A DNA stretch of 27,238 nt from a virus. The stretch is taken from positions 1 to 27,238 of the IMG/VR virus record IMGVR_UViG_3300046792_000064. One strand, given 5' to 3'. The translations under genes and the position numbers were made by a program. The notes under the pieces were generated by a model, which worked only from the letters and a program-made list of their open reading frames with translations, made no database searches and was not told the DNA's origin. Of the stretch, positions 2,050-26,358 are shown piece after piece (position 1 is the first letter of the stretch; each line of letters opens with the position of its first letter).

Positions 2050-2423
2050 TAGACAACGTCCGTTGCCGTGACGCCCTTGAGAGCGATGGTCACATCGAAG
2101 AAGTTATCCGCCATGTATTCGACGGCCTTCAGCTCGAAATAGGTGCCATAGTATTTCTCGCCCTTGTGGTTTCGGACTACGACGGTCTCACCCTTCCATA
2201 GGCGGAGGGTCGCGAGATCAGCCGGCGGGACGTTGCGCAGCATGAATGCGTAGTCGGTCGTCTCACCAAATGTCGATACAGCTCGCTGACGGCCGCCGCC
2301 GTAGGTGCGAACCTGACCGGCCATACCGTAGTCCTGTTCGCGGCCCTGGCCAGACTGCGCAGACACAGAGGCACCGGTCGCCAATAGATTGACGAAGACC
2401 TTAGTCAGTGTCAGGGTCGCCAT
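2049..2423 (-). CDS. Small minor tail protein in the distal-tail position
   Basis: A 124-residue protein encoded directly after the tape measure, coupled on both sides by TAATG overlaps. It has a beta-rich pattern with a central basic, Gly-rich loop (Y-G-G-G-R-Q-R) and a C-terminal strand D-V-T-I-A-L-K-G-V. In siphoviruses this slot normally encodes the distal tail protein that closes the tube and seats the tip. The protein is shorter than the classical two-domain Dit (about 200-300 residues), so only the N-terminal ring-forming domain could be present. Function is inferred from position. Confidence 0.75.
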   Translation of the reverse strand: MATLTLTKVFVNLLATGASVSAQSGQGREQDYGMAGQVRTYGGGRQRAVSTFGETTDYAFMLRNVPPADLATLRLWKGETVVVRNHKGEKYYGTYFELKAVEYMADNFFDVTIALKGVTATDVV

Positions 2424-5400
2424 TACCGCCGCTTCCTCGATGCCGTAGTGATTCCTCCGCCCATGGCCCGCGCTGTGTCGTGGCCAACCTCGCCCAGCTT
2501 GTCAAGGATGTCCTTAAGAACCTCGATGACATCGTCCATCGTATCGGCCGTGGTGACCGTCTCGTGGCGACCGGTCTTGTTCAGTGCCATGGTGAGGCCC
2601 GGAGGCAGTAGACCACCACTGTCATACAGATTCGCATTCACGAGTCCGCCATTGGCGAACGCCGCCGTCTGGCCGAGCTGGGCCAGGGCAGCGAGCGCTA
2701 CCGCCTGCTCCTGGTCGTAGCGAGCGGGGAACGCGGAGACCTGGACGGCCTGAGCGAGGGCACCGGCCGAACCTCCCACGCTATGCTCCGCCGCCATGGC
2801 GCGGGAGACGAAGGAGTGCGTCGCTGTGGCCACGTTCAATGGGCTAGGCCAGCCGGCCGAAGGTCGTTGCTGAAGGAAGCCAAGCGAGTCGTGGTCAGTC
2901 GCGGTCTGGAGATTGCGGAATCCAGATTCGACGAAGCCTGCCTCGAAGAGTGCCAGCATGACGCGAGCGTCCGCGCCCATCGCCAGCGCTGTCTGATAGG
3001 CGATCTTCTCTACCTGCTTGTCGGCGAGGTTGCCATCATTGCCGGCAGCTCCACCAGCGATACAGATATCAGGCAGCTTCGAATCGATGAACGACTTAAT
3101 CTTGTCGATCAGCGTGTTGGTAACACCGCGAGCTTCGGGCTTGAAACCGGTGTCACCCTTCAGCTCGTTGTTCAGCCATCCCTTTACGGGGCCGCCGATG
3201 GTGTGGTCCCACAGAGCATCGAAGGCAACGCGGGCCGGGTTCGGGAAACAGAATCCGCCGCCGCCCTGGTCCTGGAATGCCCCGCCGCCGCCGACCGGGA
3301 TGTGGCCGTGGTTCGTGAACTTACCCGGTGACATATTGACATTGCCGATAAGGACGTGCGGCGGGGTCGCTTCGAAGTACAGGCCACCGATCGCGCCTGC
3401 CGTGTGGCCATCAGCGCCCGAGCCACCCTGCCAGCCAACGTTAAGGTCGTTCTCGCCACCCCATCCGGGCTGGAAGAATGCACCTTCATTCGATGTATCG
3501 AAGACGCGACCGTACGGCGACAGACCGTGCGCCATCTTCCACACCGCACCGACCAGGCCAGAACAGTCGTAGGCTCCGGGGCCGGCTGCGCCCATAACGT
3601 ACGGCTTGTCTTTCTGCTGATATAGCCACTGCTGAATGGAAAGAACTAGGCCGCCATCGGCGAAGGACTGCACGAGCCCACCGAGCGCGTACATCTGTGC
3701 ATCCCACTTGTTCTTCTTCTTCAGTGCAGATCCGGGATCTTCGCACAGTCCGCCAGCACAGAATCCCTGGTGCTCATAGGGAATGCCGGTGTTGCCATGC
3801 TCGATATTTCCGGTGTTGATTGCCTCAAGCACGCTGAGGTATTTCTTCGTGGCTGCGGCATTGATGACGAACTCGCCGTTAGACAGCCGAGCCGGAATAG
3901 AGTCGCTGGTGGGTCCGCCGGGTCCACTGACGAAACCACCGCTAGCGAAGTGCATTTCCGGGAGCGGGGGAAGGTTTACCTTGCTAGCGATGAAGTTCCA
4001 TGCCGGCCGGATGCCTTGCATATACACGGTGTTGACAACGAATGCGACAGGCGCGCGACAGAACTCCTTGATCTTGTCCCACGCAATGCGGATCGCCTCG
4101 ACGGCAGCGTTGAACGCCTCGGGGATAACGTCATGCACCGTGTGGTAGAGCGGACCGAACACGTTGGTATTGACCCACTGCCATACCGTATTGATCGCAT
4201 CCTTAATGGCATTCCAGACGGGAACCACGACGTTCGAATAGAGCCACTGGAACACCGAGCCGAGGACACGGATCGCGTCCTCCATGCCGTTCCATAGATC
4301 CATGAGGAAATGGCCGACAGAGTTGATAATCGACTGGATAGCCTGCCACACGGGATTGACGATATTGAAATAGAGCCACTGCCAGACGGAGCCGAGCAGG
4401 CGAATGGCCCCCCCGAGTACGGCGTCGAACAGTCCGACCAGGAACCCGACCACCGCACTGATGATGTTCTGGATTCCCTGCCACACGGGATTGACGATAT
4501 TGACCCACAGCCATTGCCAGACAGCTCCGAGCGCTGCGATCGTGGCGTGCAACGCTCCATTGAAAGTCGAGATGATCCAGCCGACTACGGCGTTAATGAC
4601 CGACTGTATGCCTTGCCAAACCGGAAGGACGACGTTGACGTACAGCCATTGGAATACTGCACCGACCGCCGTGATCGCCCCACGGATTGCCGGCCAGATT
4701 ACCCCGACGAAGAAGTTGGCGACGGCCCCCGCTGCGTCCTGGATTCCGTGCCAGGCATCGCGAGCCCATTGAGCCAGGTCTCTGTGGTACTTAATGGCGG
4801 ATATGACGATTCCTATAAGCGCGACAATCGCCAGAATAATAATGCCAATCGGGTTAGCATCCATAGCCGCGTTTAGTGCCCATTGCGCTGCGGTCCACGC
4901 AAGGACGGCGGCCCTAACGACGGCCATTGCTACGGCACTCGCAATCATCGCGACTTTCTGTAGGACCAACTGAAGCGTCAGCCGTGCCTGAGCGAGCGCC
5001 GACCCGTTAGTGATCGCCGTCCACGCGGCCTGGATTCCTCGGCCTACCGCAGTAGCCGCTGCCCACGCCTTAGTGGCAGCCGCATTAAGACCAAGGGCAG
5101 CAGAGTTGGATTTCTTCGCTACGGTGTCGGCGTCGGTCGCGACCGTTACGCCCTTCAGGCCGGTAATAGCGCCAGACAGGAATGTGGTGACGGTGCTGAT
5201 TACGCTGCCCAGCTTCCATGCCGTCCACAGCCCGGCTACAGCGATGGTCAATGCCTCGGTGACGGGCTTGTTGGTCTTCAGCCAGCCGGCCACGGCCTCA
5301 AGTGCAGGGTTGACCGCCGTGAGGATGGTTGCTGCCATTCCCGTGAAGATGGCGAGAATGGGAGAGAGCGCGTCAAGGAACTCCGCGAATGTGGGCAGCA

Positions 5401-6793
5401 GTGTGAGCACCTGAGGCCCGAGGATCGCGATGGAATCCTTAAGCCGCTGGAGCGTGGGGATCAACGCATCGACGATAGACTTGCCGGTCTCATTTAGGAA
5501 GTGGAATAGGTTCTCCAGATCCTTCTGGCCTTGCGGACTCTGAAGGAACACGCGGAACTTCTGCGTAAGCTGCTCGATGGTCGACAGTAGGTTGGTGCCG
5601 TCCGCGCTCGACGCATGGAAGAACTCGCCTATGATGATGGCCAGGTTCTTGATAATCTGCCACAGCACGAGTCCGGTATTGATGGCTTTCTGTAGCCATT
5701 CCTGGAGCTTGCCCGTCGCTTCGGCCTTCTGAATGAACCGGTCGAACGCTTGCGCCATCTCATTGATATAGCCGGCCAGCGTCACGAGAGCCGGAGCGCC
5801 AGCGTGCAGCAGGCGACCAAACGCATCGGTGACCGCGCCAGCGGCAGGGGTCAATACGCCGATAGCCTGGGCTGTGGCGTGCAGCGTGTCATTCAACCCG
5901 CGAACGAAGGATGCCGACGATGCGGCGTGAAGGATCTCCGCGGCAAATCCCCCCATCGCGTGAGCGATCTGCGGGAGCTGGTTATTCAGCACCGGGAAGA
6001 TGTTGTGCGCCAAGCCATCGAATTGCGCGATTACCGGACCCCAGAAGTTACCAGCGACAGCTTCACGCAAACCCTTGAATGCGCCCTGGAAACTGAGCAG
6101 AGCACCCACAGCGTTCTGAGCCGAAGGCGGAAGTGCAGCCATGTCGGTAGCAAATGCCTTCATGTTCCCCGAAAGGAAATCGTGAATTGCTGAGCCAACG
6201 CCGGAAGTGGCCAGCTTGAATACGCCCAGAGCTGCGGCGCCGCCGGTCAGCAGAGAGGGAAGGGCGACAGCACTGCCGATCAGTGGCGCCAGGGATGCAC
6301 CGAGGTTAACGACGGCCGGAGCTGCGGCTGCGGCTGCCCCACCAATGAGGGCGAACTTCGATGCGAGCACTCCAGCGACAGTGCTAAATATGCTGCTCTG
6401 TCGAAAGCCCGAGCCGAACCGGTCGCCCGCTTCATGTCCCGCTTCTTCGCCAGCGATGCCGGCTTCGAGCTTCAGCTTTTCCTTGAACAGCTCCATCTGC
6501 GCGATGCCTTCCCTGGCATCGACACGCAGCGAAGCAGTGGGGGATGACCGGGCGATCTCTTCCAGCTTGGCCTTGACCCGATCGATCTCGATAAGCGCCT
6601 CGGTGGGGCTGGCCCTCAGGTTAATCTCCGGCAGATTGAGGGCGCGGAGGCGGGCATTGATAGCCTCACCTGCCGCGCTCCCCGCCGCCTCGCCACCTCG
6701 GAGGCCGGCGGCCCGCATCTTAGCTGCGAGGTCGGTCTCGAATCCCGTGGCGTCGGGACGTACGCGGATGTAAGCGTCGGCCAGTGTCGACAT
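2423..6793 (-). CDS. Tape measure protein with NlpC/P60-like and lytic transglycosylase-like domains
   Basis: A 1456-residue protein, the longest gene here, that sets tail length and is ejected during infection. The start has a GGAGGG ribosome site. Residues about 1-130 are alanine-rich and helical, followed by long hydrophobic segments. About residues 710-890 hold four Trp-rich repeats of 44-45 residues. The loop G-G-F-V-S-G-P-G-G and I-P-A-R-L-S-N-G-E-F-V-I is a hallmark of actinophage tape measures. An NlpC/P60-type site follows: C1077 in Y-D-C-S-G-L-V and H1130 in D-G-H-T-A-G. A lysozyme/transglycosylase-like segment has E1289 in V-E-S-G-F-R-N and F-L-Q-Q-R-P at 1306-1311. Both enzymes would open peptidoglycan at DNA entry. 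Confidence 0.96.
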   Translation of the reverse strand: MSTLADAYIRVRPDATGFETDLAAKMRAAGLRGGEAAGSAAGEAINARLRALNLPEINLRASPTEALIEIDRVKAKLEEIARSSPTASLRVDAREGIAQMELFKEKLKLEAGIAGEEAGHEAGDRFGSGFRQSSIFSTVAGVLASKFALIGGAAAAAAPAVVNLGASLAPLIGSAVALPSLLTGGAAALGVFKLATSGVGSAIHDFLSGNMKAFATDMAALPPSAQNAVGALLSFQGAFKGLREAVAGNFWGPVIAQFDGLAHNIFPVLNNQLPQIAHAMGGFAAEILHAASSASFVRGLNDTLHATAQAIGVLTPAAGAVTDAFGRLLHAGAPALVTLAGYINEMAQAFDRFIQKAEATGKLQEWLQKAINTGLVLWQIIKNLAIIIGEFFHASSADGTNLLSTIEQLTQKFRVFLQSPQGQKDLENLFHFLNETGKSIVDALIPTLQRLKDSIAILGPQVLTLLPTFAEFLDALSPILAIFTGMAATILTAVNPALEAVAGWLKTNKPVTEALTIAVAGLWTAWKLGSVISTVTTFLSGAITGLKGVTVATDADTVAKKSNSAALGLNAAATKAWAAATAVGRGIQAAWTAITNGSALAQARLTLQLVLQKVAMIASAVAMAVVRAAVLAWTAAQWALNAAMDANPIGIIILAIVALIGIVISAIKYHRDLAQWARDAWHGIQDAAGAVANFFVGVIWPAIRGAITAVGAVFQWLYVNVVLPVWQGIQSVINAVVGWIISTFNGALHATIAALGAVWQWLWVNIVNPVWQGIQNIISAVVGFLVGLFDAVLGGAIRLLGSVWQWLYFNIVNPVWQAIQSIINSVGHFLMDLWNGMEDAIRVLGSVFQWLYSNVVVPVWNAIKDAINTVWQWVNTNVFGPLYHTVHDVIPEAFNAAVEAIRIAWDKIKEFCRAPVAFVVNTVYMQGIRPAWNFIASKVNLPPLPEMHFASGGFVSGPGGPTSDSIPARLSNGEFVINAAATKKYLSVLEAINTGNIEHGNTGIPYEHQGFCAGGLCEDPGSALKKKNKWDAQMYALGGLVQSFADGGLVLSIQQWLYQQKDKPYVMGAAGPGAYDCSGLVGAVWKMAHGLSPYGRVFDTSNEGAFFQPGWGGENDLNVGWQGGSGADGHTAGAIGGLYFEATPPHVLIGNVNMSPGKFTNHGHIPVGGGGAFQDQGGGGFCFPNPARVAFDALWDHTIGGPVKGWLNNELKGDTGFKPEARGVTNTLIDKIKSFIDSKLPDICIAGGAAGNDGNLADKQVEKIAYQTALAMGADARVMLALFEAGFVESGFRNLQTATDHDSLGFLQQRPSAGWPSPLNVATATHSFVSRAMAAEHSVGGSAGALAQAVQVSAFPARYDQEQAVALAALAQLGQTAAFANGGLVNANLYDSGGLLPPGLTMALNKTGRHETVTTADTMDDVIEVLKDILDKLGEVGHDTARAMGGGITTASRKRR
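4220..4670 (-). repeat. Four Trp-rich 44-45-residue repeats inside the tape measure
   Basis: Units begin with G-(A/S)-V-(W/F)-Q-W-L and continue V-(N/V)-P-V-W-(Q/N)-(G/A)-I. On the + strand the shared (c/g)agcca(t/c)t core recurs at 4643, 4508, 4373 and 4241, giving periods of 135, 135 and 132 bp. The copies differ at many third positions, so the duplication is old and the protein sequence is under selection. A helical repeat of this kind would change tail length in steps if copies were gained or lost. Confidence 0.9.
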
Positions 6794-7072
6794 TTACATC
6801 CCTCCTGCCGCCTGCCTTGCCTCGTACCGTTCGGCCGCTGTGCCCTCTGATCGTTGGCGGCGTTGCTTCCCCTTGAATAGAGCGGCGTAAACGACATCCT
6901 GCTCCGTGTCGGGCTTTACCTTCGGCAGCTCGGACATCAGCCAGTCTTCCCAGGCGAGGCGTTCCTCCATCAAGTCAGGTATCTCTATGTTCTCATCTCC
7001 TGCTAGCCTAGCGTGTACCGCAGCCATCCACCCCATGCGATGCTGTTCCTTCGCGTCGTCGAGCAGGACCAC
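6794..7072 (-). CDS. Tail assembly chaperone, downstream (T-type) frame
   Basis: The 92-codon reading given here starts at the first available start codon, a GTG, but this is probably not a true start. No ribosome site precedes it, and the same frame continues open upstream past 7312 with protein-like sequence (around 7117-7075: G-A-L-G-T-L-S-L-H-Q-L) and no ATG, GTG or TTG. This is the classical arrangement in which the upstream chaperone frame is extended by a -1 ribosomal shift. The acidic/Trp segment E-R-L-A-W-E-D-W-L and a basic tail follow. The long product would bind the tape measure and recruit tail-tube subunits. The next gene is the tape measure, as expected. Confidence 0.85.
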   Translation of the reverse strand: MVLLDDAKEQHRMGWMAAVHARLAGDENIEIPDLMEERLAWEDWLMSELPKVKPDTEQDVVYAALFKGKQRRQRSEGTAAERYEARQAAGGM

Positions 7073-7110
7073 ATAGACGAATGCGCAGAGCTGGTGGAGG
7101 CTCAGCGTTC

Positions 7111-7620
7111 CTAGTGCGCCGCCTCGCTCGCCTGCTGTACGGCCCGCTGAAGGTCCGGGCGACCCTCCAACGCGGCATATGCTGCGTCCTCGACTGGCAG
7201 CTCTGCGCTCTCGATGGCGCGGTGGTTGCCCCGCGAGGAGGAGACGGCCTTCGATTTCTTGTTGGTTGCGGGCAGCGTAGATGCAGAGTCGGGTGACGGC
7301 GTTGTAGGGAAAGCAGCCGTTGCCTCCACGATGACCTTCGAAAGGGTCATGAGGTCGTTCAACGTCTGTCGATTTTCCTTGGCCAGCTTCCAGAAATCGG
7401 ACCAGTCCTCATCGTGGATCTGCTGTTTCAGGAAGTCCATCGTGATCTTGACGCCCTCGGATTCGTTCTCCTCGTCGATCTCCATAGCCTTCGCCATGAA
7501 ATCGAGGTACACGAGTTCGCCGGACTGGGGGTTGACGCGGATCGTTTTGCCGAAGTAGCCGAAGGTCAGCTCCTCCATGTCGTCGTGCGCCACACCGAAG
7601 TCGCCCAGATTCTTAGCCAT
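7111..7620 (-). CDS. Tail assembly chaperone, upstream (G-type) frame
   Basis: A 169-residue protein lying between the major tail protein and the tape measure, the invariant place of the siphovirus tail chaperone. The start has a GAGAGGGA ribosome site. Residues 1-100 are acidic and ordered in appearance (F-G-Y-F-G-K-T-I-R-V-N-P, then M-D-F-L-K-Q-Q-I). Residues 105-135 form a Ser/Thr/Pro/Lys linker, and an Ala/Glu-rich helix ends the protein. A -1 shift within this gene would add the frame encoded at 6794-7114. The short and long forms together chaperone the tape measure in the cytoplasm and are absent from the finished virion in characterised phages. Confidence 0.9.
   Translation of the reverse strand: MAKNLGDFGVAHDDMEELTFGYFGKTIRVNPQSGELVYLDFMAKAMEIDEENESEGVKITMDFLKQQIHDEDWSDFWKLAKENRQTLNDLMTLSKVIVEATAAFPTTPSPDSASTLPATNKKSKAVSSSRGNHRAIESAELPVEDAAYAALEGRPDLQRAVQQASEAAH
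7306..7312 (-). promoter_or_regulatory. Candidate -1 frameshift heptamer TTTCCCT
   Basis: Read on the minus strand in the chaperone's own frame, codons are GCT TTC CCT, so the heptamer T TTC CCT fits X-XXY-YYZ exactly. It is the only perfect heptamer I found between here and the end of the upstream frame. The downstream frame is stop-free from this point to 6794. Against it: the site lies about 200 nt before the upstream stop, earlier than usual, and Y is C rather than the usual A or U. A shift nearer 7120 on a non-standard slip site is the alternative. Confidence 0.5.
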
Positions 7621-7640
7621 GTCTCCCTCTCCATGTAGAC

Positions 7641-7677
7641 GAATGCCCGGCCCGTGTAACCGGCAGGCCGGGCATTC
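7641..7677 (-). terminator. Perfect 12-bp hairpin after the major tail gene
   Basis: The arms gaatgcccggcc (7641-7652) and ggccgggcattc (7666-7677) are perfectly complementary around a 13-base loop. The hairpin lies in the 78-bp gap between the major tail protein and the tail chaperone. No T-run follows, which is common for high-GC actinobacterial terminators. A partial terminator here would lower expression of the chaperone and tape measure relative to the tube protein, which is needed in many more copies. Confidence 0.75.
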
Positions 7678-7698
7678 ATTAGCTTACACGGATCACGC

Positions 7699-8277
7699 TT
7701 ACGCGCGAGAGGTGCCAGCGGTGTAGAACTTGAACGGGAACCCGGACGCCGGGATCTCGAAGTTGAACTGGCAGGGAATCGCCGCGTACTTCGGGGCCTT
7801 GTCGAACGAGGTCTTAATCGACCCACCCTGGACGCCCTGGTACACGATGATGCGCATGGTCCCATCGAGGGATTCCCACCCGAGCATGGCTCGGACTTCC
7901 GAGCCGGGGGTCGGGGGCACGTAGCTGTTGAGCTGCGTAGCGCCCGAGCCGGAGACGACGGAGAGCGTGCCACCGTTGAGGGCGCGGCTCCAGTTGGTCA
8001 GCGTGTAGTTCGCGAGAGCGAAGGCGAACGATCCCTGTCGGTCCGTGGTGGCCCACTTGATCGGATCGAAGAACTCCGCTACCGACACGGCCGCCAGCTT
8101 CGTCTCGTACGTGAAGTCCGAACCGGACTCCGTCGCGCCGAGAGAGAGCCAGGCACCGGGCCAGGCGTCAGTGAACTTCGAACCCGAGACGGTGTTCGCA
8201 GGCTCAGCCGACAGTAGCGGCGCCCAGAAGAGATAGCCGGGGTCGGTCAACACGACCGGGGTTGCGGTAGTGGGCAT
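7699..8277 (-). CDS. Major tail protein (tail tube)
   Basis: A 192-residue beta-rich protein immediately before the tail chaperones, the normal place of the siphovirus tube subunit. It has the usual features: a start P-T-T-A-T-P-V-V-L-T-D-P-G-Y-L, a segment W-L-S-L-G-A-T-E-S-G that resembles the W-x-x-L-G-x-T-x-x-G loop of actinophage tube proteins, and a Phe-rich C-terminus (F-N-F-E-I-P-A-S-G-F-P-F-K-F-Y). Subunits stack as hexameric rings around the tape measure. The ATG overlaps the upstream stop as TAATG. A strong hairpin follows the gene, in keeping with a product made in large amounts. Confidence 0.92.
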   Translation of the reverse strand: MPTTATPVVLTDPGYLFWAPLLSAEPANTVSGSKFTDAWPGAWLSLGATESGSDFTYETKLAAVSVAEFFDPIKWATTDRQGSFAFALANYTLTNWSRALNGGTLSVVSGSGATQLNSYVPPTPGSEVRAMLGWESLDGTMRIIVYQGVQGGSIKTSFDKAPKYAAIPCQFNFEIPASGFPFKFYTAGTSRA

Positions 8278-8621
8278 TACTCACTCTCTCCATCCTCGGC
8301 CGGTTCCGGCTCGACATTGACGACCGGCGTTGCCGGCGTGACGGGCGGGGGAGCCGGGGCATCCTCATGGATGGCCTTGACTTCCTCGTAGTACGGCGGA
8401 CGCACTACGGTGCCGTCCTTGTCCCAGCCCAGCCGCTCCACTGTGGACACCGGCACCGGGTATCCCTGTGGGAACGCGAGAGTTCCACCGGGAGTATGGA
8501 TGTTGTCGGCCGCGATCCACTGCTGATACTCCCAGAGCTGTTCGCGGTTGTATCGCTCCAGAGCCTCGGGCGTGTCGTGACCCCGGACTGCGCCCTGCGC
8601 GGGAAGCTGCGGCTGCACCAC
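8277..8621 (-). CDS. Hypothetical protein with proline/acidic C-terminal tail
   Basis: A 114-residue protein started at GTG with GAGGAG six bases upstream; a second GTG follows directly. I do not recognise a family. Residues 15-45 look helical (E-A-L-E-R-Y-N-R-E-Q-L-W-E-Y-Q-Q-W-I), then comes P-V-P-V-S-T-V-E-R-L-G-W, and the last 30 residues are Pro, Ala and Glu, probably disordered. The helix resembles short host-type segments that bind a partner by one face. It is co-transcribed with, and overlaps, the major tail gene, so a structural or tail-assembly role is possible but not shown. Confidence 0.75.
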   Translation of the reverse strand: MVQPQLPAQGAVRGHDTPEALERYNREQLWEYQQWIAADNIHTPGGTLAFPQGYPVPVSTVERLGWDKDGTVVRPPYYEEVKAIHEDAPAPPPVTPATPVVNVEPEPAEDGESE

Positions 8622-8644
8622 TTCGATCTCCTCAGATATCGAGA

Positions 8645-9028
8645 TTAGTTGACGATTACAGCGTAGACCTTGACGTTGGTGTTCGCTGAAGGCGTCAGCT
8701 TCGCGAAGCCAGCGTTGCCGCCGCCCTGATCGAAGCGACGATATCCGTCGACATCGAGGCAGACGATGACCACGCCGGTCGCCGGGCAGGTGATGGTGAG
8801 GTCCTGGTCGGTGCCGTAGCTCGACAGGAGGATGGAGTCCACGGTGAACGTACAGCTCGTGCCGGCCGTGGTGATGATGATGAGCGTGCCGGTGCCGAGA
8901 TTGATCGGGTACAGGTCACCGGTGCCGGTCGTCGGAGTCGCGCCGGTCGCGGTGATGTCCTGCCCGGCGGTGGAACCGGTCGTGTTCGCCCCAACGTTCG
9001 CGGCGATCGTCGCGGTGAGCGTAGCCAT
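8645..9028 (-). CDS. Small beta-rich structural protein, S-A-N-T-N family member 1
   Basis: A 127-residue protein, almost all Gly, Thr, Ala, Val and Ile, with a GGAGG ribosome site. It is a beta-sandwich type sequence without catalytic motifs. The end reads P-S-A-N-T-N-V-K-V-Y-A-V-I-V-N; the same S-A-N-T-N near the C-terminus occurs in the proteins at 14218-14595 and 25945-26358, which share a similar strand order. Composition and place between head-joining and tail genes suggest a capsid- or tail-surface decoration protein. This is inferred from composition and context. Confidence 0.75.
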   Translation of the reverse strand: MATLTATIAANVGANTTGSTAGQDITATGATPTTGTGDLYPINLGTGTLIIITTAGTSCTFTVDSILLSSYGTDQDLTITCPATGVVIVCLDVDGYRRFDQGGGNAGFAKLTPSANTNVKVYAVIVN

Positions 9029-9064
9029 CGGTGAACCTCCAGGGGTTTCAACGTGTCAATACAA

Positions 9065-9358
9065 CTATGCCACAGTCGTATGGTATCCGCAGGCAGCGTA
9101 TCCAGCAGTGTCCACCCATGAGTCGACGTGGGTCGGGTTGTGGCGTAGCCGAGCCATCTTCATCAAGATCATCATGGCTGCCACGTCGTGGGACTTGATC
9201 GGTTTGCCGTCCTTGGATACGCCGTAGGCATTCCAGAGATCGGCAATTTCACGGAAGTTGTTCTCCGGCTGGCCGTAGGCACTGGCCCGATCCTTCGTGA
9301 CGTGAGACTTCGCCGTGTCGAGTACGTGGACTCGCGGGTCGCTGTCGGTATCTCCCAT
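9065..9358 (-). CDS. DUF6378-like protein
   Basis: A 97-residue protein that matches the DUF6378 pattern seen in many phages as I remember it: a helix with K-D-R-A-S-A-Y-G-Q-P-E-N-N-F, then I-A-D-L-W-N-A-Y, S-H-D-V-A-A-M-M-I-L-M-K-M-A-R-L-R-H-N-P, and H-V-D-S-W-V-D-T-A-G-Y-A-A. The helical core with E, N, D and the D-S-W-V-D motif recalls all-alpha NTP pyrophosphohydrolases of the MazG type, but no enzyme activity is established. It is out of place: a non-structural protein inside the head-tail joining genes, in the same orientation and operon. The ribosome site is weak. Confidence 0.85.
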   Translation of the reverse strand: MGDTDSDPRVHVLDTAKSHVTKDRASAYGQPENNFREIADLWNAYGVSKDGKPIKSHDVAAMMILMKMARLRHNPTHVDSWVDTAGYAACGYHTTVA

Positions 9359-9367
9359 GACCGCAGC

Positions 9368-9661
9368 CTATATCTCGAACGCGGGGACGAGGAAGCTATG
9401 CGGGCGCATATAGCGAGTTCCCTTTTCCTGGAAATACATGTAGTAGCGCTCGCGCGTCCAGCTCACGTCATCCTCCCAGCCGGTGTCGGTGAGCACGGGC
9501 TCGCTGTGGATCGATGCGGCGCCGAGGCCGGTTCGTTTGGGCGCAAGCTGTTGCGCCAGTGCGATATGCGGGGCCACGGCATCGAGCAACACCTGTCGCA
9601 TTTCAGGGCTACGCATCAATTCCTGAAACCCTGACTGGTTGAACTGGAAGTCGTCGGCCAT
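9368..9661 (-). CDS. HK97 gp10-like head-tail/tail-completion protein
   Basis: A 97-residue protein with the HK97-gp10 pattern: an N-terminal helix (S-G-F-Q-E-L-M-R-S), a second helix with Q-Q-L-A-P-K-R-T-G-L-G-A-A-S-I, and the C-terminal Y-Y-M-Y-F-Q-E-K-G-T-R-Y-M-R-P-H-S-F-L-V-P-A-F. The A-P-K-R-T-G and E-x-G-T-x-x-M-x-P-x-x-F elements are diagnostic of the family, which acts in the head-tail connection of lambdoid-type siphophages. It has a GGAG ribosome site. In this genome it follows the terminator-like gene rather than preceding it, a small change from the usual order. Confidence 0.88.
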   Translation of the reverse strand: MADDFQFNQSGFQELMRSPEMRQVLLDAVAPHIALAQQLAPKRTGLGAASIHSEPVLTDTGWEDDVSWTRERYYMYFQEKGTRYMRPHSFLVPAFEI

Positions 9662-9669
9662 CGAAACTC

Positions 9670-10110
9670 CTAGTAGCTGTGGTACACGTTGGCGAGGATT
9701 TCCATCGTCATGATGCTTATGGATTCGTCGTCGGTGTATGCGTGGTCGGTCAATCCTCGGGTGACGCCGAGATACGTTGCGGTGCCGAGGGATGGGTTAG
9801 CCTTCATGATCGACCGGATATCCTGAGCGATCGATTGCATGATGCCGTCCGTGGTGGCCATGTCCTTCTCGGAGTCTCGACCAACCACCTTGATGTAGAT
9901 AGTGACGAATGCCTGTTCCTGAATCAGGACGCCGGTCTCGGCTGTGGCGTCGTTGTCGGTGAACCTCGTCGCTCCGCCGTAGATGCACATTCCGTGAGTC
10001 AGTGCCGGCGGGCTGAAGTAGCCGAGATCGATGTTCGCGAGGTTGCCGATCTGCTGCTCGAATGCGAACCGATCGAACAGCGATTTCTTGACATCGATCA
10101 CTACGGTCAT
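9670..10110 (-). CDS. Probable tail terminator protein
   Basis: A 146-residue protein with a TAGGAGAGA ribosome site. It has an alpha/beta arrangement: a helix F-D-R-F-A-F-E-Q-Q-I, a strand G-V-L-I-Q-E-Q-A-F-V-T-I-Y-I-K-V-V-G, a long helix with I-M-Q-S-I-A-Q-D-I-R-S-I-M, and a final strand S-I-M-T-M-E-I-L-A-N-V. This mixed order with a central long strand is typical of gpU-like tail terminators, which cap the tube and join it to the head. Size and location next to the gp10-like gene agree. No sequence motif makes the call certain. Confidence 0.7.
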   Translation of the reverse strand: MTVVIDVKKSLFDRFAFEQQIGNLANIDLGYFSPPALTHGMCIYGGATRFTDNDATAETGVLIQEQAFVTIYIKVVGRDSEKDMATTDGIMQSIAQDIRSIMKANPSLGTATYLGVTRGLTDHAYTDDESISIMTMEILANVYHSY

Positions 10111-10118
10111 CGTCTCTC

Positions 10119-11819
10119 CTAGCTCGGGTTACCGCTTGTCTGTGTGGTGCCGCCCGCCCCGCCCAGTCCAACGCTGCCGCCCTCGGGATCGGCAGCCTGA
10201 TACGAACTACCCCCGGGGTTGCCTGAGCGCGCAGAGCTGCCCTCAGGGTCTCCGAAGTTAATCGTCGATCCGTCGATGGCGACCGGGATAACGGTGATCA
10301 CCCCGGCAACACTGCCGGTGGCTGACAGCATACCGACACCGTTAACTGTAACGATGGCACCCTGCGTTGCCAGATCGGCCAGGACACCCGAACCGGTCGG
10401 TGCGACATTCGCGCCCTGCAATGCGGACGGGCTCGCCAGCGCACCGGCACCGGTCAATGTGGCGATGACGCTTTCTGTCGCGACAGCACTCATCGTGCCG
10501 GCGCCGCCGAGGTTGGCTGAGCCGCCCGCGCTCGCGTTCAGTACGCCAGTACCGACCATTGTCACGATGGCGAGCTGCGTAGCCAGTGCCGTGACTGATC
10601 CAGCGCCAGCGATATTCACGATCGCGAGCTGCGTGGCCAATGCCGTGAGTGTGCCGGCACCGGTCGGGCTGGTCGGTGCCTGAAGAATGATATTTCCATT
10701 CGTCAGTACGCCGGCACCGGTCATCGAATCCGTCGCGCCCTGCGTCGCGGCGTCGGTCAGCGTTCCGGCTCCAGTGATGGTGACTGGCGCTAGTTCCCTC
10801 GCCGCGTTCGTGACGACACCAGCACCGGTAAGGCTAGTGACTGCGGTCTCTATTTGCATAGCGACGTTGCTCACTGCACCAGCACCGGCGAGGTTATCGA
10901 TCGCACCCTGCGTCGCAGCATTGCTGACCGCGCCGGCACCAGCCGGGGTTACGGGCGCTTGCTGAATTACGGCCGGCTGCGTGACTACGCCGCCACCGTT
11001 GGCAGCAACGGACGAGGCGAGTGTCGCATTAGGACCGACGACGCCAGCACCAGTAAAGCTCGCTGGATCTGATGGTGCGAGCAATGTACAGGGCGCATCC
11101 GCCAGTGCGCCAATGCCTACCATACCCACTGTGCCATTGAATGTCTGAGCGCCAGTGGCAGGAACGTCGGTTGTTAGGACCGTTGCCCTTTGCGTAAGCA
11201 GCTCACGCAAAACGATGGGTGGAAAGTGTGGCCTAGGTTGTTCTGGGTCGAGAATGGCGCCGGCTTCCCAGAATGTTATGCCGGGAGAGGAGACACCGCT
11301 GCCACCGGAATAACCAATACCGGGGATACCCGTTGCAATGGACGTGTCTACAGTATCGGCACCGACCTGCGAACCGTTATAGAACACGCGAATGGTTGAG
11401 CCGTAAATCTCCATACGAAGAAGCGCGCCCTGGACAAAGGTTGCAGCCCTGTCCCAGATATCGGTGAATACGCCAGCTACGAATCTCTGTAGCTGGATGT
11501 TATTGCCCGCCGCAGCGTTGATCGAAAGACGGTAATACGTGGTGGATGTGTTGTTACGGAGAATGAGGCAAGGACCGACGCCGCTGCCTGCCGTGCCACC
11601 CGTACAGAACATGAACCCCTGGACGTACTGGTCGGCGGGCCAGGTCGTCAGAGAAGACCCACCGCGTGCGTTGTAGTAAGAACCAGCATCGGAACCGACA
11701 GCGGTCGGCGCGGCCTGGTTGCTCAGGATTTGCATTGTGCCGACAAAGCCAGTCCATGGCGGATTAGGCAGCGGGCTTACATTTGCCTGAGTGAAGTCGT
11801 ATCTGGCGAGGTTGCCCAT
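10119..11819 (-). CDS. Large structural protein: lectin/LamG-like N-terminus plus 18-residue repeats
   Basis: A 566-residue protein with a GAGGGTG ribosome site. Residues about 1-195 look like a concanavalin/LamG jelly roll: Y-Y-R-L-S-I-N-A, I-Q-L-Q-R-F-V-A-G-V-F-T-D-I-W-D, L-L-R-M-E-I-Y-G-S-T-I-R-V-F-Y-N-G. Residues about 230-505 hold roughly 15 imperfect repeats of 16-20 residues (mostly 18) with consensus T-G-A-G-x-L-T-x-x-A-T-Q-x-A. The last 45 residues repeat (D/N)-P-(E/G)-G-(S/G)-S. Such an architecture fits a long thin fibre with a sugar-binding head. Its place among head-joining genes suggests a capsid or neck fibre, but this is inference. Confidence 0.88.
   Translation of the reverse strand: MGNLARYDFTQANVSPLPNPPWTGFVGTMQILSNQAAPTAVGSDAGSYYNARGGSSLTTWPADQYVQGFMFCTGGTAGSGVGPCLILRNNTSTTYYRLSINAAAGNNIQLQRFVAGVFTDIWDRAATFVQGALLRMEIYGSTIRVFYNGSQVGADTVDTSIATGIPGIGYSGGSGVSSPGITFWEAGAILDPEQPRPHFPPIVLRELLTQRATVLTTDVPATGAQTFNGTVGMVGIGALADAPCTLLAPSDPASFTGAGVVGPNATLASSVAANGGGVVTQPAVIQQAPVTPAGAGAVSNAATQGAIDNLAGAGAVSNVAMQIETAVTSLTGAGVVTNAARELAPVTITGAGTLTDAATQGATDSMTGAGVLTNGNIILQAPTSPTGAGTLTALATQLAIVNIAGAGSVTALATQLAIVTMVGTGVLNASAGGSANLGGAGTMSAVATESVIATLTGAGALASPSALQGANVAPTGSGVLADLATQGAIVTVNGVGMLSATGSVAGVITVIPVAIDGSTINFGDPEGSSARSGNPGGSSYQAADPEGGSVGLGGAGGTTQTSGNPS
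10290..11135 (-). repeat. About 15 tandem coding repeats, mostly 54 bp
   Basis: The segment encodes repeats beginning (T/A)-G-(A/S)-G-(V/L/T) and containing A-T-Q at the tenth to twelfth positions. On the + strand the repeat is visible as recurring gccggcaccggt / ccagcaccag blocks about 54 bp apart. Two adjacent units, around 10560-10650, are nearly identical (both with L-A-T-Q-L-A-I-V), suggesting recent duplication or slippage in that part. Boundaries are approximate. Confidence 0.85.
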
Positions 11820-11833
11820 TTAGGCACCCTCGC

Positions 11834-12412
11834 TTAGTAGCCAGTGATCAGTCGAACAGAGAGATAGTTCGTCTTCACAACGTTAGACGCGGAGCTTGTG
11901 CCCCACGCTGCGCCAACGCCAATCGCTCGGGCTGCCGAGCAGTCGAATGTAACGGTCCGCGCAGCCAACGTCGTGGGCATTGGGAGGTCAGTCATTGCAA
12001 CCGTCAACCCTGTCGTAAATTTCCCGAATCCCTGTCCGTTGATTGTCGCGGCGTTGTCGGGCTGGATTGCGCGAACCCGACCGAAATACATCAACGCCCA
12101 CGGGACGCTAGCAACGCCTGACCCCGTGGTAAAAGTTGGGGTCTGGGCAAGAATGCTTGTCGGAGCCGTTGGCGTAGTAGCAGTATTGCTTTCGCCGCCG
12201 TTGATCCAGACACCGAGAGTCAGGGTGGGAGTACCGGTCGTCGAGTATTCGCCATGCGCGATTACCTCGATATCCAGCCCGACCTCGAATGTAGCCTGGG
12301 GGATGACGAGCTGACCGCTTGGCGAGATGTTCGCAAACGTGGTGAACGTGTTAAAGCCAAGCCCATCTAGTGCATGGATCGGCTGCATAGGAGTAACGAT
12401 CTTGACGGACAT
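11834..12412 (-). CDS. Beta-rich structural protein of unknown function
   Basis: A 192-residue protein with AAGGGG five bases before its ATG. Composition is Thr/Gly/Ala/Val with strands such as F-E-V-G-L-D-I-E-V-I-A-H-G-E-Y and T-L-T-L-G-V-W-I-N-G-G, then Y-L-S-V-R-L-I-T-G-Y at the C-terminus. This is jelly-roll-like, similar in feel to head fibre and collar proteins that assemble as trimers. No motif identifies a family. It lies directly before the lectin-repeat gene and after a tail-fibre-like gene, so it probably belongs to the same surface structure. Confidence 0.75.
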   Translation of the reverse strand: MSVKIVTPMQPIHALDGLGFNTFTTFANISPSGQLVIPQATFEVGLDIEVIAHGEYSTTGTPTLTLGVWINGGESNTATTPTAPTSILAQTPTFTTGSGVASVPWALMYFGRVRAIQPDNAATINGQGFGKFTTGLTVAMTDLPMPTTLAARTVTFDCSAARAIGVGAAWGTSSASNVVKTNYLSVRLITGY

Positions 12413-12421
12413 CGCTACCCC

Positions 12422-12835
12422 TTACGTCAGGCTGATGGAAATGGAGTCCAGCGCGAACTGGAATGTGTTGCCGTTGGCCACGTTCACCGGCTGGCCATTG
12501 ATGTTGCCGAACCACGTGCGGACGCCAGCACCATCGGTGAGGTCAATGCTGACCAGGCCCCAGTTCGAGCCAGAGGAGTTCGTCCATGTCAGGATCGCGG
12601 TGTGCGGGATCGTGACTGCCGAGCCCGCCGCACTCGTGGTCGCGAATGGCGCGGTCGATGTCTGGCCACCGGTTGTGTACCCACCGCCCGAGGGAACCTC
12701 GGTGCCGGCAGCCGAAGCGGTCGATGCCGTGGTGTTGAGTCGGACCTTAAATCCGGTAGTCAGCGTGGTGAATGCGGTAGCAGAGGTGGTCGAATTGAGA
12801 ATCTTCGACACCATCGCCTGCTCAATCGCCGCCAT
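12422..12835 (-). CDS. Small tail-fibre/decoration-like protein
   Basis: A 137-residue protein. The open frame extends to 12913, but the ATG at 12835 has GGAGGG six bases upstream and leaves only a short overlap with the preceding gene, so it is the likely start. The sequence follows a pattern common in phage 'tail fibre' annotations: A-I-E-Q-A-M-V-S-K-I-L-N-S, F-K-V-R-L-N-T-T, A-G-T-E-V-P-S-G-G-G-Y, W-T-N-S-S, W-G-L-V-S-I-D-L-T-D-G-A-G, V-A-N-G-N-T-F-Q-F and a last strand S-I-S-I-S-L-T. Members are small beta-sandwich virion proteins. The exact location on the virion is not known from sequence. Confidence 0.82.
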   Translation of the reverse strand: MAAIEQAMVSKILNSTTSATAFTTLTTGFKVRLNTTASTASAAGTEVPSGGGYTTGGQTSTAPFATTSAAGSAVTIPHTAILTWTNSSGSNWGLVSIDLTDGAGVRTWFGNINGQPVNVANGNTFQFALDSISISLT

Positions 12836-13031: not shown

Positions 13032-13901
13032 CTACGCGAAACCCGTGGAGGTTGTCGCCTCGCGCTGATAGACGGCATCCACTGTCGGGATACCGACCAG
13101 CTCACACGAGGGCGTGCTGAGCCGGTACGTGCCGCCGTCGTGGACGCTGTAGCTGATGGCCCGATAGGGCACGCTCGTGTCGGTCTGACCGATGAGGGTA
13201 CGGGCTCGGATGATGGCGACAGACGAGATGGTGGGCGGGCAGAAATCCATGCCATGCTCCAGCTCGAATATGATGTTCTGTCGACCGTACGGGAACCAGC
13301 CGCCCCACCACTGGACAACGCCCGATGCGGATAGCCAGATATTCGAGTTGGCCGAGATGTTTGGAACCGAGACCGTGACCACGCCATTCTGGATGATCGT
13401 GACAGATCGAAGTACGCGCGTATAGGCAATGGGCAGCAACAGCTCGGAATCGTTGTTGCCGTCCAGCGCGTAGCGGCCGAACTTCGGGAACAGCGCTCGC
13501 CCGAGAATGCGCTCCGCCTCGACCTCGGTCTCTAGCCTCGCCGCGATCAGGTCGGCAGTGGAGTACGACGAGACAGAGAGGGCCGGCTTGGCGTTGCGAA
13601 GTTGGGCCAGCGAGAAAATGGTGCCGCCGACAATCTCCAGGTAATCGAACGGTGCCACTGCGCCGCCGGCCAGGGTACAAGTCCAGGTAACCACGTACGT
13701 ATCGAGCGAGGTGACGGGCGCGAGCGTGAATGAGTACACGCCTGTCGTGCCATGAGTCGCGGTGCCCGTAACGATCAGCGTGCCATCGAGACGCTTCACC
13801 GTATAGGTGACGTTGCCCGTCGCATCCGTCGCTACCTCATCGACGTAGAACGTATGCGACAGGGTCGTCTGCGCATTCATCTGAATGCGTATAAGGCTCA
13901 C
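13032..13901 (-). CDS. Head-tail connector (adaptor) with N-terminal Ig-like domain
   Basis: A 289-residue protein starting at GTG with AAGG eight bases upstream. Residues about 1-92 form an Ig-like or BppU-like beta domain (Y-T-V-K-R-L-D-G-T-L, G-V-Y-S-F-T-L, Y-V-V-T-W-T-C). Residues about 93-289 have the head-tail adaptor pattern: S-L-A-Q-L-R-N, S-Y-S-T-A-D-L-I-A-A-R-L-E-T-E-V-E-A-E-R-I-L-G-R-A, then strands I-I-F-E-L-E-H-G. In HK97-type phages this ring docks under the portal. The added N-terminal domain is unusual and may reach the outer face of the neck. Confidence 0.8.
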   Translation of the reverse strand: MSLIRIQMNAQTTLSHTFYVDEVATDATGNVTYTVKRLDGTLIVTGTATHGTTGVYSFTLAPVTSLDTYVVTWTCTLAGGAVAPFDYLEIVGGTIFSLAQLRNAKPALSVSSYSTADLIAARLETEVEAERILGRALFPKFGRYALDGNNDSELLLPIAYTRVLRSVTIIQNGVVTVSVPNISANSNIWLSASGVVQWWGGWFPYGRQNIIFELEHGMDFCPPTISSVAIIRARTLIGQTDTSVPYRAISYSVHDGGTYRLSTPSCELVGIPTVDAVYQREATTSTGFA

Positions 13902-14217: not shown

Positions 14218-14595
14218 TTACACCGGGTAGATGTCGGCCGTCACGGTCTCATTCGTGTTCGCCGAATAGTTCAGGCGGAAGTACCGCCAGACGAGATCGG
14301 CAGTGATGAGACGAATGATGGAGCCGGTCGTAGTGACCACGAGCGTGGCGGCGAATGTGGTCGGGGTGGCCGGGTCGACGAGGCCGCAGTTCTGCCAGAT
14401 CACGTTATCGACGGAGATCTGTGGGGTGATGGTAACGGTAGGAGTCGATCCACCCGTGTTCTGTACGACCAGCACGGCGGGGTGGATACCGACGACCTGA
14501 CGGTCACAGACGTTGGTAGATGCACCAGCGGGGTTCACCTGAGCGTTGCTGAGGTTCACGCCCATGCCGGCGCCGAGGGTCTGGATCGCAGCCAC
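14218..14595 (-). CDS. Probable capsid decoration protein, S-A-N-T-N family member 2
   Basis: A 125-residue protein started at GTG with GGAGG five bases upstream, directly after the major capsid gene. It is beta-rich: A-V-L-V-V-Q-N, V-T-I-T-P-Q-I-S-V-D-N-V-I-W, L-V-V-T-T-T-G-S-I-I-R-L-I and Y-F-R-L-N-Y-S-A-N-T-N. Position, size and composition suit a protein that binds the outside of the head. The similar strand pattern and S-A-N-T-N end link it with the proteins at 8645-9028 and 25945-26358, with the closer similarity to the latter. Confidence 0.75.
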   Translation of the reverse strand: MAAIQTLGAGMGVNLSNAQVNPAGASTNVCDRQVVGIHPAVLVVQNTGGSTPTVTITPQISVDNVIWQNCGLVDPATPTTFAATLVVTTTGSIIRLITADLVWRYFRLNYSANTNETVTADIYPV

Positions 14596-22468: not shown

Positions 22469-23353
22469 CTACCCCTTCCCAACGATGACCGGCGGAGCAC
22501 CAGCCTGCGAGCAATTGAACGTCGTCGGGAGGTTACCGAGCTGGCCCTCGGACGCGAGGAACTTGACAAGGTTGAGGCAGTTCTGATACTGCACCCCCGG
22601 ATCGTTGGAAGATTGAGTAGCGAGAATGTCGTTGGCGAGCTTCTGTTGCTCGGCCGTCAACTTCTGCTGCGTCGCGATCTGCGTATCCGCGAGCGCTTGC
22701 GCGTAGCCGTTCAGCTTGTTCTGCGTCACCGGGTCGAAGTGAACGATGGAAATGAGCAACGTATCGACATCGATACCAGGATCGACGGACGCCTTCATCG
22801 CGGCGAGGACCTGCCTCGCGAGGTCGCCGGTTGAGATCTGCGGGGCTCCCGAGTTGGTCAGTACAGCCAGAGGATTGTACTGCTCGAAAGCCACATTGAG
22901 GGCTCGCTGCAACTCCCGGCGTACCACGTTATTCCCAATGTTCTCGACCACCTTGTCGTTGTTGCCGCGATAGCGCTGCCACAGCTCATTGGCATTCGCG
23001 TGCTGATCGATGTTCCACTGGAGCGTGAGATCGACGCACGCCGTGGTTTGGTTGGCCAGACGGACGGTCACACAGTTCGGATTGTCGAGGTTGACATTCT
23101 GAACGGTCGCATCGACGGTCTCGATTGACGACCACGGCGGTACGAAGTGCGCGCCGTTGCTCAGGGTTTCGTTCGCCTTGCCGAAGTTGTTGACGATGCC
23201 GACGTTCCGTGCAGGGATGATCGTGAAGGAATCGAAGAACAGCAGGATGGCAGCGAGGACCATGAGGCCGACGCCGACGTATCGAGGGCGCACGAAACTT
23301 AGGCAGATCAATCCGGCAATAAATGCCAGGATCGATACGACGAAGACGAACAC
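22469..23353 (-). CDS. SPFH/band-7 (prohibitin-like) membrane protein
   Basis: A 294-residue protein started at a GTG that shares a base with the preceding stop and has AAGGAGG four bases upstream; a GTG nine codons earlier is inside the upstream gene. Residues 1-20 and about 24-42 are hydrophobic and should span the membrane. The SPFH core starts at I-I-P-A-R-N-V-G-I-V-N-N-F-G-K and N-G-A-H-F-V-P-P-W-S-S-I, with later strands V-D-L-T-L-Q-W-N-I-D, and a helix Q-A-L-A-D-T-Q-I-A-T-Q-Q-K-L. Family members form large membrane rings that organise proteases or lipid domains. A role in protecting or remodelling the host membrane is inference. Confidence 0.93.
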   Translation of the reverse strand: MFVFVVSILAFIAGLICLSFVRPRYVGVGLMVLAAILLFFDSFTIIPARNVGIVNNFGKANETLSNGAHFVPPWSSIETVDATVQNVNLDNPNCVTVRLANQTTACVDLTLQWNIDQHANANELWQRYRGNNDKVVENIGNNVVRRELQRALNVAFEQYNPLAVLTNSGAPQISTGDLARQVLAAMKASVDPGIDVDTLLISIVHFDPVTQNKLNGYAQALADTQIATQQKLTAEQQKLANDILATQSSNDPGVQYQNCLNLVKFLASEGQLGNLPTTFNCSQAGAPPVIVGKG

Positions 23354-23616
23354 TAATCCTCCTTGAAAGTAACGAACCACACCTGAGATTCCTCGGGCGT
23401 GCCGGGTTCGGTGTATTCCGATGGCTCACACTGGAGCAACGTCGCGACGTTCGGCTGGAAATAGACGGACAGCACTCCATCGTTCGCGGTCAGGATGGCG
23501 CGGTCCAACTTCTGGCCATCGAGGAATCGCCATCCCGGAGTCGCCCTCAGCTCGTCGCTCTTCGTGCGCAGCACCACATTGCGCGGTGCCGGCCGTTCCT
23601 GCGTTTCGACGGTCAT
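23353..23616 (-). CDS. Hypothetical protein upstream of SPFH gene
   Basis: An 87-residue protein. The ATG at 23616 overlaps the upstream stop (ATGA) and has GGGGAG seven bases ahead, which decides against the longer GTG start at 23631. Sequence: a basic N-terminus with R-P-A-P-R-N-V-V-L-R, then W-R-F-L-D-G-Q-K-L-D-R-A-I-L-T-A-N-D-G-V-L-S-V-Y-F-Q, and an acidic end E-S-Q-V-W-F-V-T-F-K-E-D. It reads as a small alpha/beta domain. No family is recognised. Confidence 0.78.
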   Translation of the reverse strand: MTVETQERPAPRNVVLRTKSDELRATPGWRFLDGQKLDRAILTANDGVLSVYFQPNVATLLQCEPSEYTEPGTPEESQVWFVTFKED

Positions 23617-25944: not shown

Positions 25945-26358
25945 CTAGACCCAGCGCTGTTGCGGGCGGATCAGGGCGTAGATCCACGAGTTCACATTCG
26001 TGTTCGCGGAGAGAACGACCTTCAGGTAGCGGAAGTCCGTGGGCTTGCCGTAGACGATCTTCGTCGCCGCGAGGCCGCCGGCCGTGACAGTGAACGCGGT
26101 CGTTCCGGTCGTGCCCGGAGTCGAGACATCGGCGAACGTCGCAGCCGAGTACGACGAGTTGTCCGCCGACACGTTCGGCAGATAGGTACACGTCGGGGTG
26201 GCGCCAACCGACTGGAAGAACAGCAGCTCGATGGAGTTGGCCTTGAAGTGCGGCCCGAGATCGAGGATGTTCGTCGTGTCACCGGTGCCGGACTGGTTGG
26301 CATTCAGCGCAACGGCGAACGGCAGAAGCGCCTGAGGGCTCACATCGATAAGGGCCAT
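25945..26358 (-). CDS. Beta-rich structural-type protein, S-A-N-T-N family member 3
   Basis: A 137-residue protein in the small-gene region, far from the structural genes, yet it resembles the protein encoded next to the capsid gene (14218-14595). Shared order: a hydrophobic strand (I-E-L-L-F-F-Q-S-V / A-V-L-V-V-Q-N), N-V-S-A-D-N-S / Q-I-S-V-D-N-V, F-T-V-T-A-G / L-V-V-T-T-T-G, F-R-Y-L-K-V-V-L-S-A-N-T-N / W-R-Y-F-R-L-N-Y-S-A-N-T-N. It is probably a virion surface protein expressed from a separate unit. No strong ribosome site is seen; it starts five bases after the preceding stop. Confidence 0.75.
   Translation of the reverse strand: MALIDVSPQALLPFAVALNANQSGTGDTTNILDLGPHFKANSIELLFFQSVGATPTCTYLPNVSADNSSYSAATFADVSTPGTTGTTAFTVTAGGLAATKIVYGKPTDFRYLKVVLSANTNVNSWIYALIRPQQRWV

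Follow-up and report, generated by a model that had tools for sequence, protein, structure and literature searches.

The window analysed here, a viral contig of 27,238 bases, encodes a protein with a lectin-like N-terminus and a long run of short repeats among its head and connector genes. This raises the questions of where on the particle such a protein might sit, what it might bind, and whether the gene stands alone. A first-pass annotation had taken it for a capsid or neck fibre, and for a single gene whose layout matched no described system. Here we compare the gene and its neighbours with related viral loci and weigh the explanations for its function.

The fibre gene and its surroundings

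The open reading frame at 10119-11819 exists as first annotated, and its strand, which had been left out, is the minus strand (11819 to 10119); the plus strand across the same interval is crowded with stops. A GAGGG-type ribosome-binding sequence lies ahead of the start codon, which is 14 nt past the stop of the preceding gene, G118. The structural genes on the minus strand are ordered TerL, portal, protease, major capsid protein, a small beta-rich protein (14218-14595) and the connector; then come the small gene at 12422-12835, G118, the fibre gene, the gene at 9670-10110 and an HK97-gp10-like neck protein, followed by the major tail protein and a chaperone (both assigned by position) and the tape measure (see Table 1 for coordinates).

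The fibre gene had been placed between connector and tail terminator. The connector upstream is borne out by its PHROG match, and it is moreover related (E=8e-5) to the adaptor of locus L087, a phrog_442 member. The name of the downstream gene comes from position: no Pfam, PHROG or PDB match backs "tail terminator" for 9670-10110, which is so called because it precedes the HK97-gp10/Neck1-like gene.

Table 1. Features of the fibre cassette and its flanks in the window
Feature	Position	Strand	Basis or remarks
Head-tail connector, adaptor-like, cassette flank	13032..13901	-	phrog_30828, E=2.8e-47
Small beta-sandwich-like cassette protein	12422..12835	-	55.6% identity to the L054 homologue from residue 27
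G118, predicted jelly-roll protein, cassette marker	11834..12412	-	192 aa; directly upstream of the fibre gene; AlphaFold, Foldseek
Fibre protein	10119..11819	-	566 aa; final cassette gene
Predicted N-terminal jelly-roll, ConA-like/CBM66-like lectin domain, residues 1-195	11235..11819	-	AlphaFold and Foldseek; homologues in relatives
Shaft, residues ~231-505	10305..11129	-	14 GxG-anchored repeats, period 18, TGAGxLTxxxATQ
C-terminal tail, residues 524-566	10122..10250	-	four 10-residue repeats
Tail-terminator candidate, cassette flank	9670..10110	-	position only; adjoins the connector in cassette-free relatives
Neck/tail-completion protein, HK97-gp10-like	9368..9661	-	phrog_5, E=3.6e-6

Other genes on the minus strand of the window are recorded in their own right. 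The beta-rich protein at 14218-14595 is related to another small one far away at 25945-26358 (30% identity, E=9e-6), and 8645-9028 shares just the ending SANTNV with this pair. A DUF6378 gene (9065-9358, E=6.3e-30) lies between the neck and tail genes, and 22469-23380 encodes a 303-aa SPFH/Band_7 membrane protein (Pfam E=4.9e-21). The tape measure (2423-6793) matches the endolysin-labelled phrog_971 (E=3.1e-91) and perhaps has built-in peptidoglycan-cleaving domains. At locus L005 the translated tape-measure gene (9090-12224) has a seemingly intein-like insert (CLEESAQALTKDRGWVHHDALSPGD... LAGWVATEGWF).

The N-terminal head domain

The N-terminal domain gave no sequence match in Pfam, PHROG or PDB, and a PDB profile search returned antibody chains only, which were judged spurious. 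The AlphaFold model of the fibre is weak (pLDDT 43.7 overall, 60-74 at residues 90-160), and its top 50 Foldseek matches in the PDB are solely CBM66, galectin, alginate-lyase, glucanase and similar jelly rolls (best E=4e-3). This low-confidence model thus suggests that the head belongs to the ConA-like jelly-roll fold class, and we claim no single Pfam family for it. The first-pass annotation had called the N-terminus LamG-like and had held that a predicted structure lacking a jelly roll would count against a lectin fibre. The model, with jelly rolls throughout its top 50 matches, agrees with that description, as does a Laminin_G_3 domain (Pfam E=7.7e-13) in L096, a relative whose shaft is likewise of GAGTLTA type. 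Homologues of the head occur in N-terminal position in L002 (41% identity) and in a tail-fibre-like protein (L143), and as a free-standing protein in L141.

Shaft and tail repeats

Fourteen GxG-anchored units, mostly spaced by 18 residues, lie between residues 235 and 497, and column counts give the consensus TGAGxLTxxxATQ. The earlier count of about 15 repeats was right to within one, and the period of 18 is supported by autocorrelation (z=7.4, reached by 0/300 shuffles). The D-P-E-G-S-S tail reported before is present (residue 524); what had been missed is that it belongs to a second tandem array, with units of 10 residues (DPEGSSARSG, NPGGSSYQAA, DPEGGSVGLG, GAGGTTQTSG; lags 10 and 20, 0/300 shuffles). 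L002 carries a matching 10-residue tail.

The shaft is beta-rich and may form a beta-helix or beta-roll. For a triple beta-spiral we scored a 15-residue consensus with hydrophobic residues at c, e, g, k and m and Gly/Pro at j; the window repeats do not fit this consensus, scoring 0.38 against 0.35 ± 0.03 for column-permuted repeats (137/500), and some excess appeared in three of 13 shafts (L118, L131 and L136). For the six-residue sub-period expected of a left-handed (hexapeptide) beta-helix, lag 6 gave z=2.9 in the window, and the periods of 20 and 22 in relatives misfit 3 x 6. On reading the shaft sequence, the GGxGxDxUx nonapeptide of RTX beta-rolls was not seen, and lag 9 is outside the top lags.

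A cassette with a jelly-roll partner

G118 was modelled well (pLDDT 86.5), with the TNF-like lectin PLTL as the top Foldseek match and BC2L-C also among the matches (TM about 0.4-0.55), a likeness to TNF-like lectins that is suggestive only. The small gene upstream of it starts at M 12835, as implied by relatives, and not at the mechanical start of the reading frame (12913). Homologues of its product were found solely directly upstream of G118; we rejected this gene as a universal cassette member, since most loci lack it ahead of G118.

A G118 profile identified 57 related viral loci. A fibre-like gene, scored as one that starts no more than 1.5 kb downstream of G118 and whose large product is rich in Gly, Ala, Ser, Thr and Val, follows in 52 of the 55 loci examined, and the remaining three are cut by the contig end. 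As these genes were picked by composition and length, periodicity is an independent test. Among 41 shafts whose normalised similarity stays below 50% (median 7%), 36 were significantly periodic, with the best lag at 18 (13 shafts), 20 (16), 22 (5), 21 (1) or 29 (1). Of these 36 sequence-distinct shafts, 34 thus have an even period (18 as in L136, 20 as in L123 or 22 as in L113); the shafts share ancestry and hence are not fully independent. Odd lags are not suppressed by the procedure, since the same kind of script gives lag 11 for several tape measures. Many of the relatives' fibres moreover end in 8-10-residue tandem repeats of SGREP-, RPxTGxT-, NRTYVVPAQ- or VDAYSG-type.

The fibre gene of the window fits this build, in which a head-shaft-tail fibre of period 18, 20 or 22 comes after a jelly-roll protein, and so is one member of a modular cassette; the earlier view of a lone gene does not hold. 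The same data bear on whether the product is a non-structural protein set free at lysis to bind glycans of the host or of competitors. Such a protein would need no secretion signal, and L141 has a free-standing lectin, but the tight coupling to structural genes and to the jelly-roll partner, together with a repeated shaft and tail typical of fibres, makes this explanation very improbable.

Exchange of heads and the anchor end

The heads vary among cassettes, comprising LamG, CBM-like, esterase and spherulin-4 hydrolase types. Pfam detected Spherulin4 in the L095 fibre (residues 358-585, E=2.3e-30), a weak esterase/abhydrolase-like stretch in that of L132 and a weak CBM_4_9 in that of L121. Similarity over the first 200 fibre residues does not track that of G118 (Mantel 0.08, 97/500), and in the distant cassettes L052 and L091 head similarity is 0.85 versus 0.18 for G118. 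Judged by these comparisons, head domains are swapped between distant cassettes, and both fibre ends are exchanged between relatives. The glycan-binding role first assigned to the fibre gains indirect support from the enzyme and carbohydrate-binding domains of its relatives.

The first-pass annotation had named the C-terminus, not the lectin, as the likely virion anchor. Co-variation of the C-termini with G118 at first spoke for this (0/500), but we rejected the signal, as shuffled C-termini, a control for composition, correlate equally; either end may be the anchor. The structurally known RcGTA spike (PMC10218006), A-1(L) neck fibre (PMC10966104) and lactococcal NPS (PMC6669499) have the N-terminus as anchor.

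As to domain order, the L095 fibre gene (6535-10065), upstream of the terminase gene, has its spherulin-4 (hydrolase-like) domain between head and shaft, and those at L132 (355-2637) and L088 (6574-7908) have an alpha/beta-hydrolase (esterase-like) stretch at the same place.

Distribution and host

Searched by tblastn against 50,697 deposited phage records, the fibre, G118 and further fibres had no match, and the fibre head alone gave only noise at E=4. No match came from a viral scan with the single fibre sequence or from a G118 search of genome contigs, and the tested fibres and G118 had no PHROG match, save the L127 fibre (phrog_14065, function unannotated).

The nearest capsid relatives in named genomes (44-57%) are from Streptomyces, Micromonosporaceae, Nonomuraea, Nocardioides and other actinomycetes, from which we infer that the host is probably an actinomycete, of soil type. 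G118 was present in 0/20 actinomycete capsid-relative loci; the genome of Acrocarpospora phusangensis NBRC 108782 (L158) encodes a 451-aa fibre of the same build, with period 20 and a repeated tail. Among cultured phages the capsid protein comes closest to those of Mycobacterium phages such as Courthouse (about 30%), in which no fibre is annotated at the corresponding place. Judging from these searches, the fibre type is so far known almost only from uncultivated phages.

Courthouse itself (L082, 9624-13679) has glycosyl- and methyltransferase genes between its capsid and connector genes, in the zone where the fibre cassette inserts in relatives of the phage studied here.

Position of the cassette in phage genomes

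In three relatives by major capsid protein (L003, L029 and L068) little or nothing separates the connector gene from the terminator gene, and G118 was found in just six of the 41 capsid relatives having enough sequence. Because the flanking genes adjoin where the cassette is missing, we regard it as an optional insert. Elsewhere it adjoins phrog_442 head-tail adaptors (L087, L097, L099 and L138), and cassette loci contain major head proteins of phrog_10, phrog_1650 or phrog_29, i.e. at least three capsid-protein families. The fibre gene lies upstream of terminase or capsid genes at four loci (L095, L158, L006 and L061), so that the attachment site is not fixed by gene position.

This latitude bears on whether the protein is instead a receptor-binding fibre of the tail or tail tip, with a gene that merely happens to be among head genes. 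Lectin heads on repeat shafts are common in such fibres, and the L143 protein has the same lectin domain at its N-terminus. Nevertheless, we consider a tail fibre improbable, given that the cassette recurs among head and connector genes with three capsid-protein families, and near the terminase elsewhere, and that separate genes lie past the tape measure (3-2423), where tail-tip proteins are expected. Assignment to the head/neck region, from recurrent placement among head and connector genes in many phages, is the best reading, and here the first-pass proposal of a capsid or neck fibre stands.

Comparison with known systems

The neck fibre NPS of lactococcal 936 phages (PMC6669499) is likewise encoded by an optional gene and has interchangeable carbohydrate-binding modules or carbohydrate-active folds, with domain exchange (PMC6669499, PMC10684548). 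It differs in having a conserved N-terminal part of ~180 residues and C-terminal CBMs on a coiled coil, whereas the fibre studied here has an N-terminal lectin, a shaft of 18-22-residue repeats and no conserved anchor that we could find. A BppU-like N-terminal ring domain with a C-terminal CBM, as in NPS, was not seen; the N-terminus is lectin-like and has no Pfam/PHROG match. The triple beta-spiral shafts of adenovirus fibre and reovirus sigma1 (PMC3150272) are similarly beta-rich repeats with turn glycines and a globular receptor-binding head, but their consensus is not found here and the globular domain is N-terminal in our fibre. In its mode of action the fibre would resemble NPS, the RcGTA head spikes and other head fibres, but we do not file it under these families, as it lacks the N-terminal domain of NPS and does not fit the triple beta-spiral consensus.

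The RcGTA head spike (PMC10218006) resembles it as a head fibre with a lectin-like predicted domain and a separate base protein, and differs in its N-terminal anchor and alphaproteobacterial origin; that G118 might be such a base protein is only a guess by analogy. The RcGTA spike binds capsular polysaccharide before the tail engages (PMC10218006). The A-1(L) neck fibre (gp82-gp81-gp80; PMC10966104) is also a multi-gene structure with a distal carbohydrate-binding module, built of separate bead proteins in place of one repeat protein. That module failed to bind the laboratory host of this cyanophage (PMC10966104), a caution against equating a lectin fold with primary binding to the host.

The accessory head appendages phi29 gp8.5, SPP1 gp12 and T4 Hoc (reviewed in PMC7602432) boost cell-surface binding via carbohydrates, but have helical, collagen-like and Ig-like folds and no sequence match to the fibre. 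By comparison with Hoc, fibre and G118 together could be a capsomer decoration, acting mainly to stabilise or disperse particles or to bind environmental matrix and not the host. G118 is a jelly roll beside capsid genes, and such decorations often bind glycans yet are dispensable for infection (PMC7602432). We regard this as unlikely, since stability does not need long shafts and the hydrolase and esterase-like domains in relatives point to active passage across a glycan layer.

A probable accessory head or neck fibre

Taken together, our data suggest that the gene probably encodes an accessory head or neck fibre of exchangeable head, shaft and tail, which together with G118 would serve in glycan attachment before the tail tip engages. 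The head would be an N-terminal carbohydrate-binding module, here a ConA/CBM66-like jelly roll and in relatives a LamG or CBM-like domain; in some relatives an esterase or spherulin-4-type hydrolase comes after the head. It would be carried on a beta-rich shaft of 18-, 20- or 22-residue repeats ending in a tail of 8-10-residue repeats. Encoded with its jelly-roll partner and probably oligomeric, the fibre would be part of the virion, fixed on the outside of the head or where head and tail join, and would loosely tether the particle to glycans of the actinobacterial cell or matrix before engagement of the tail tip, and in relatives glycan cutting or passage through the matrix may be added.

More tentatively, these proteins may form a new class of head/neck fibres that is widespread in uncultivated actinomycete-type phages, with a sequence-tolerant shaft fold limited to periods of 18, 20 and 22 and swappable heads that bind or cut glycans; fibre and jelly-roll partner would travel together as a cassette from one capsid lineage to other, unrelated ones. 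If this is true, many environmental phages that lack cultured relatives bear on their head or neck a so far unrecognised device for adhesion, itself exchangeable and distinct from the receptor-binding proteins of the tail. The even steps in repeat length give a prediction by which an undescribed shaft fold can be tested, and the swappable heads, whether lectins, esterase or hydrolase, would supply glycan-recognising modules.
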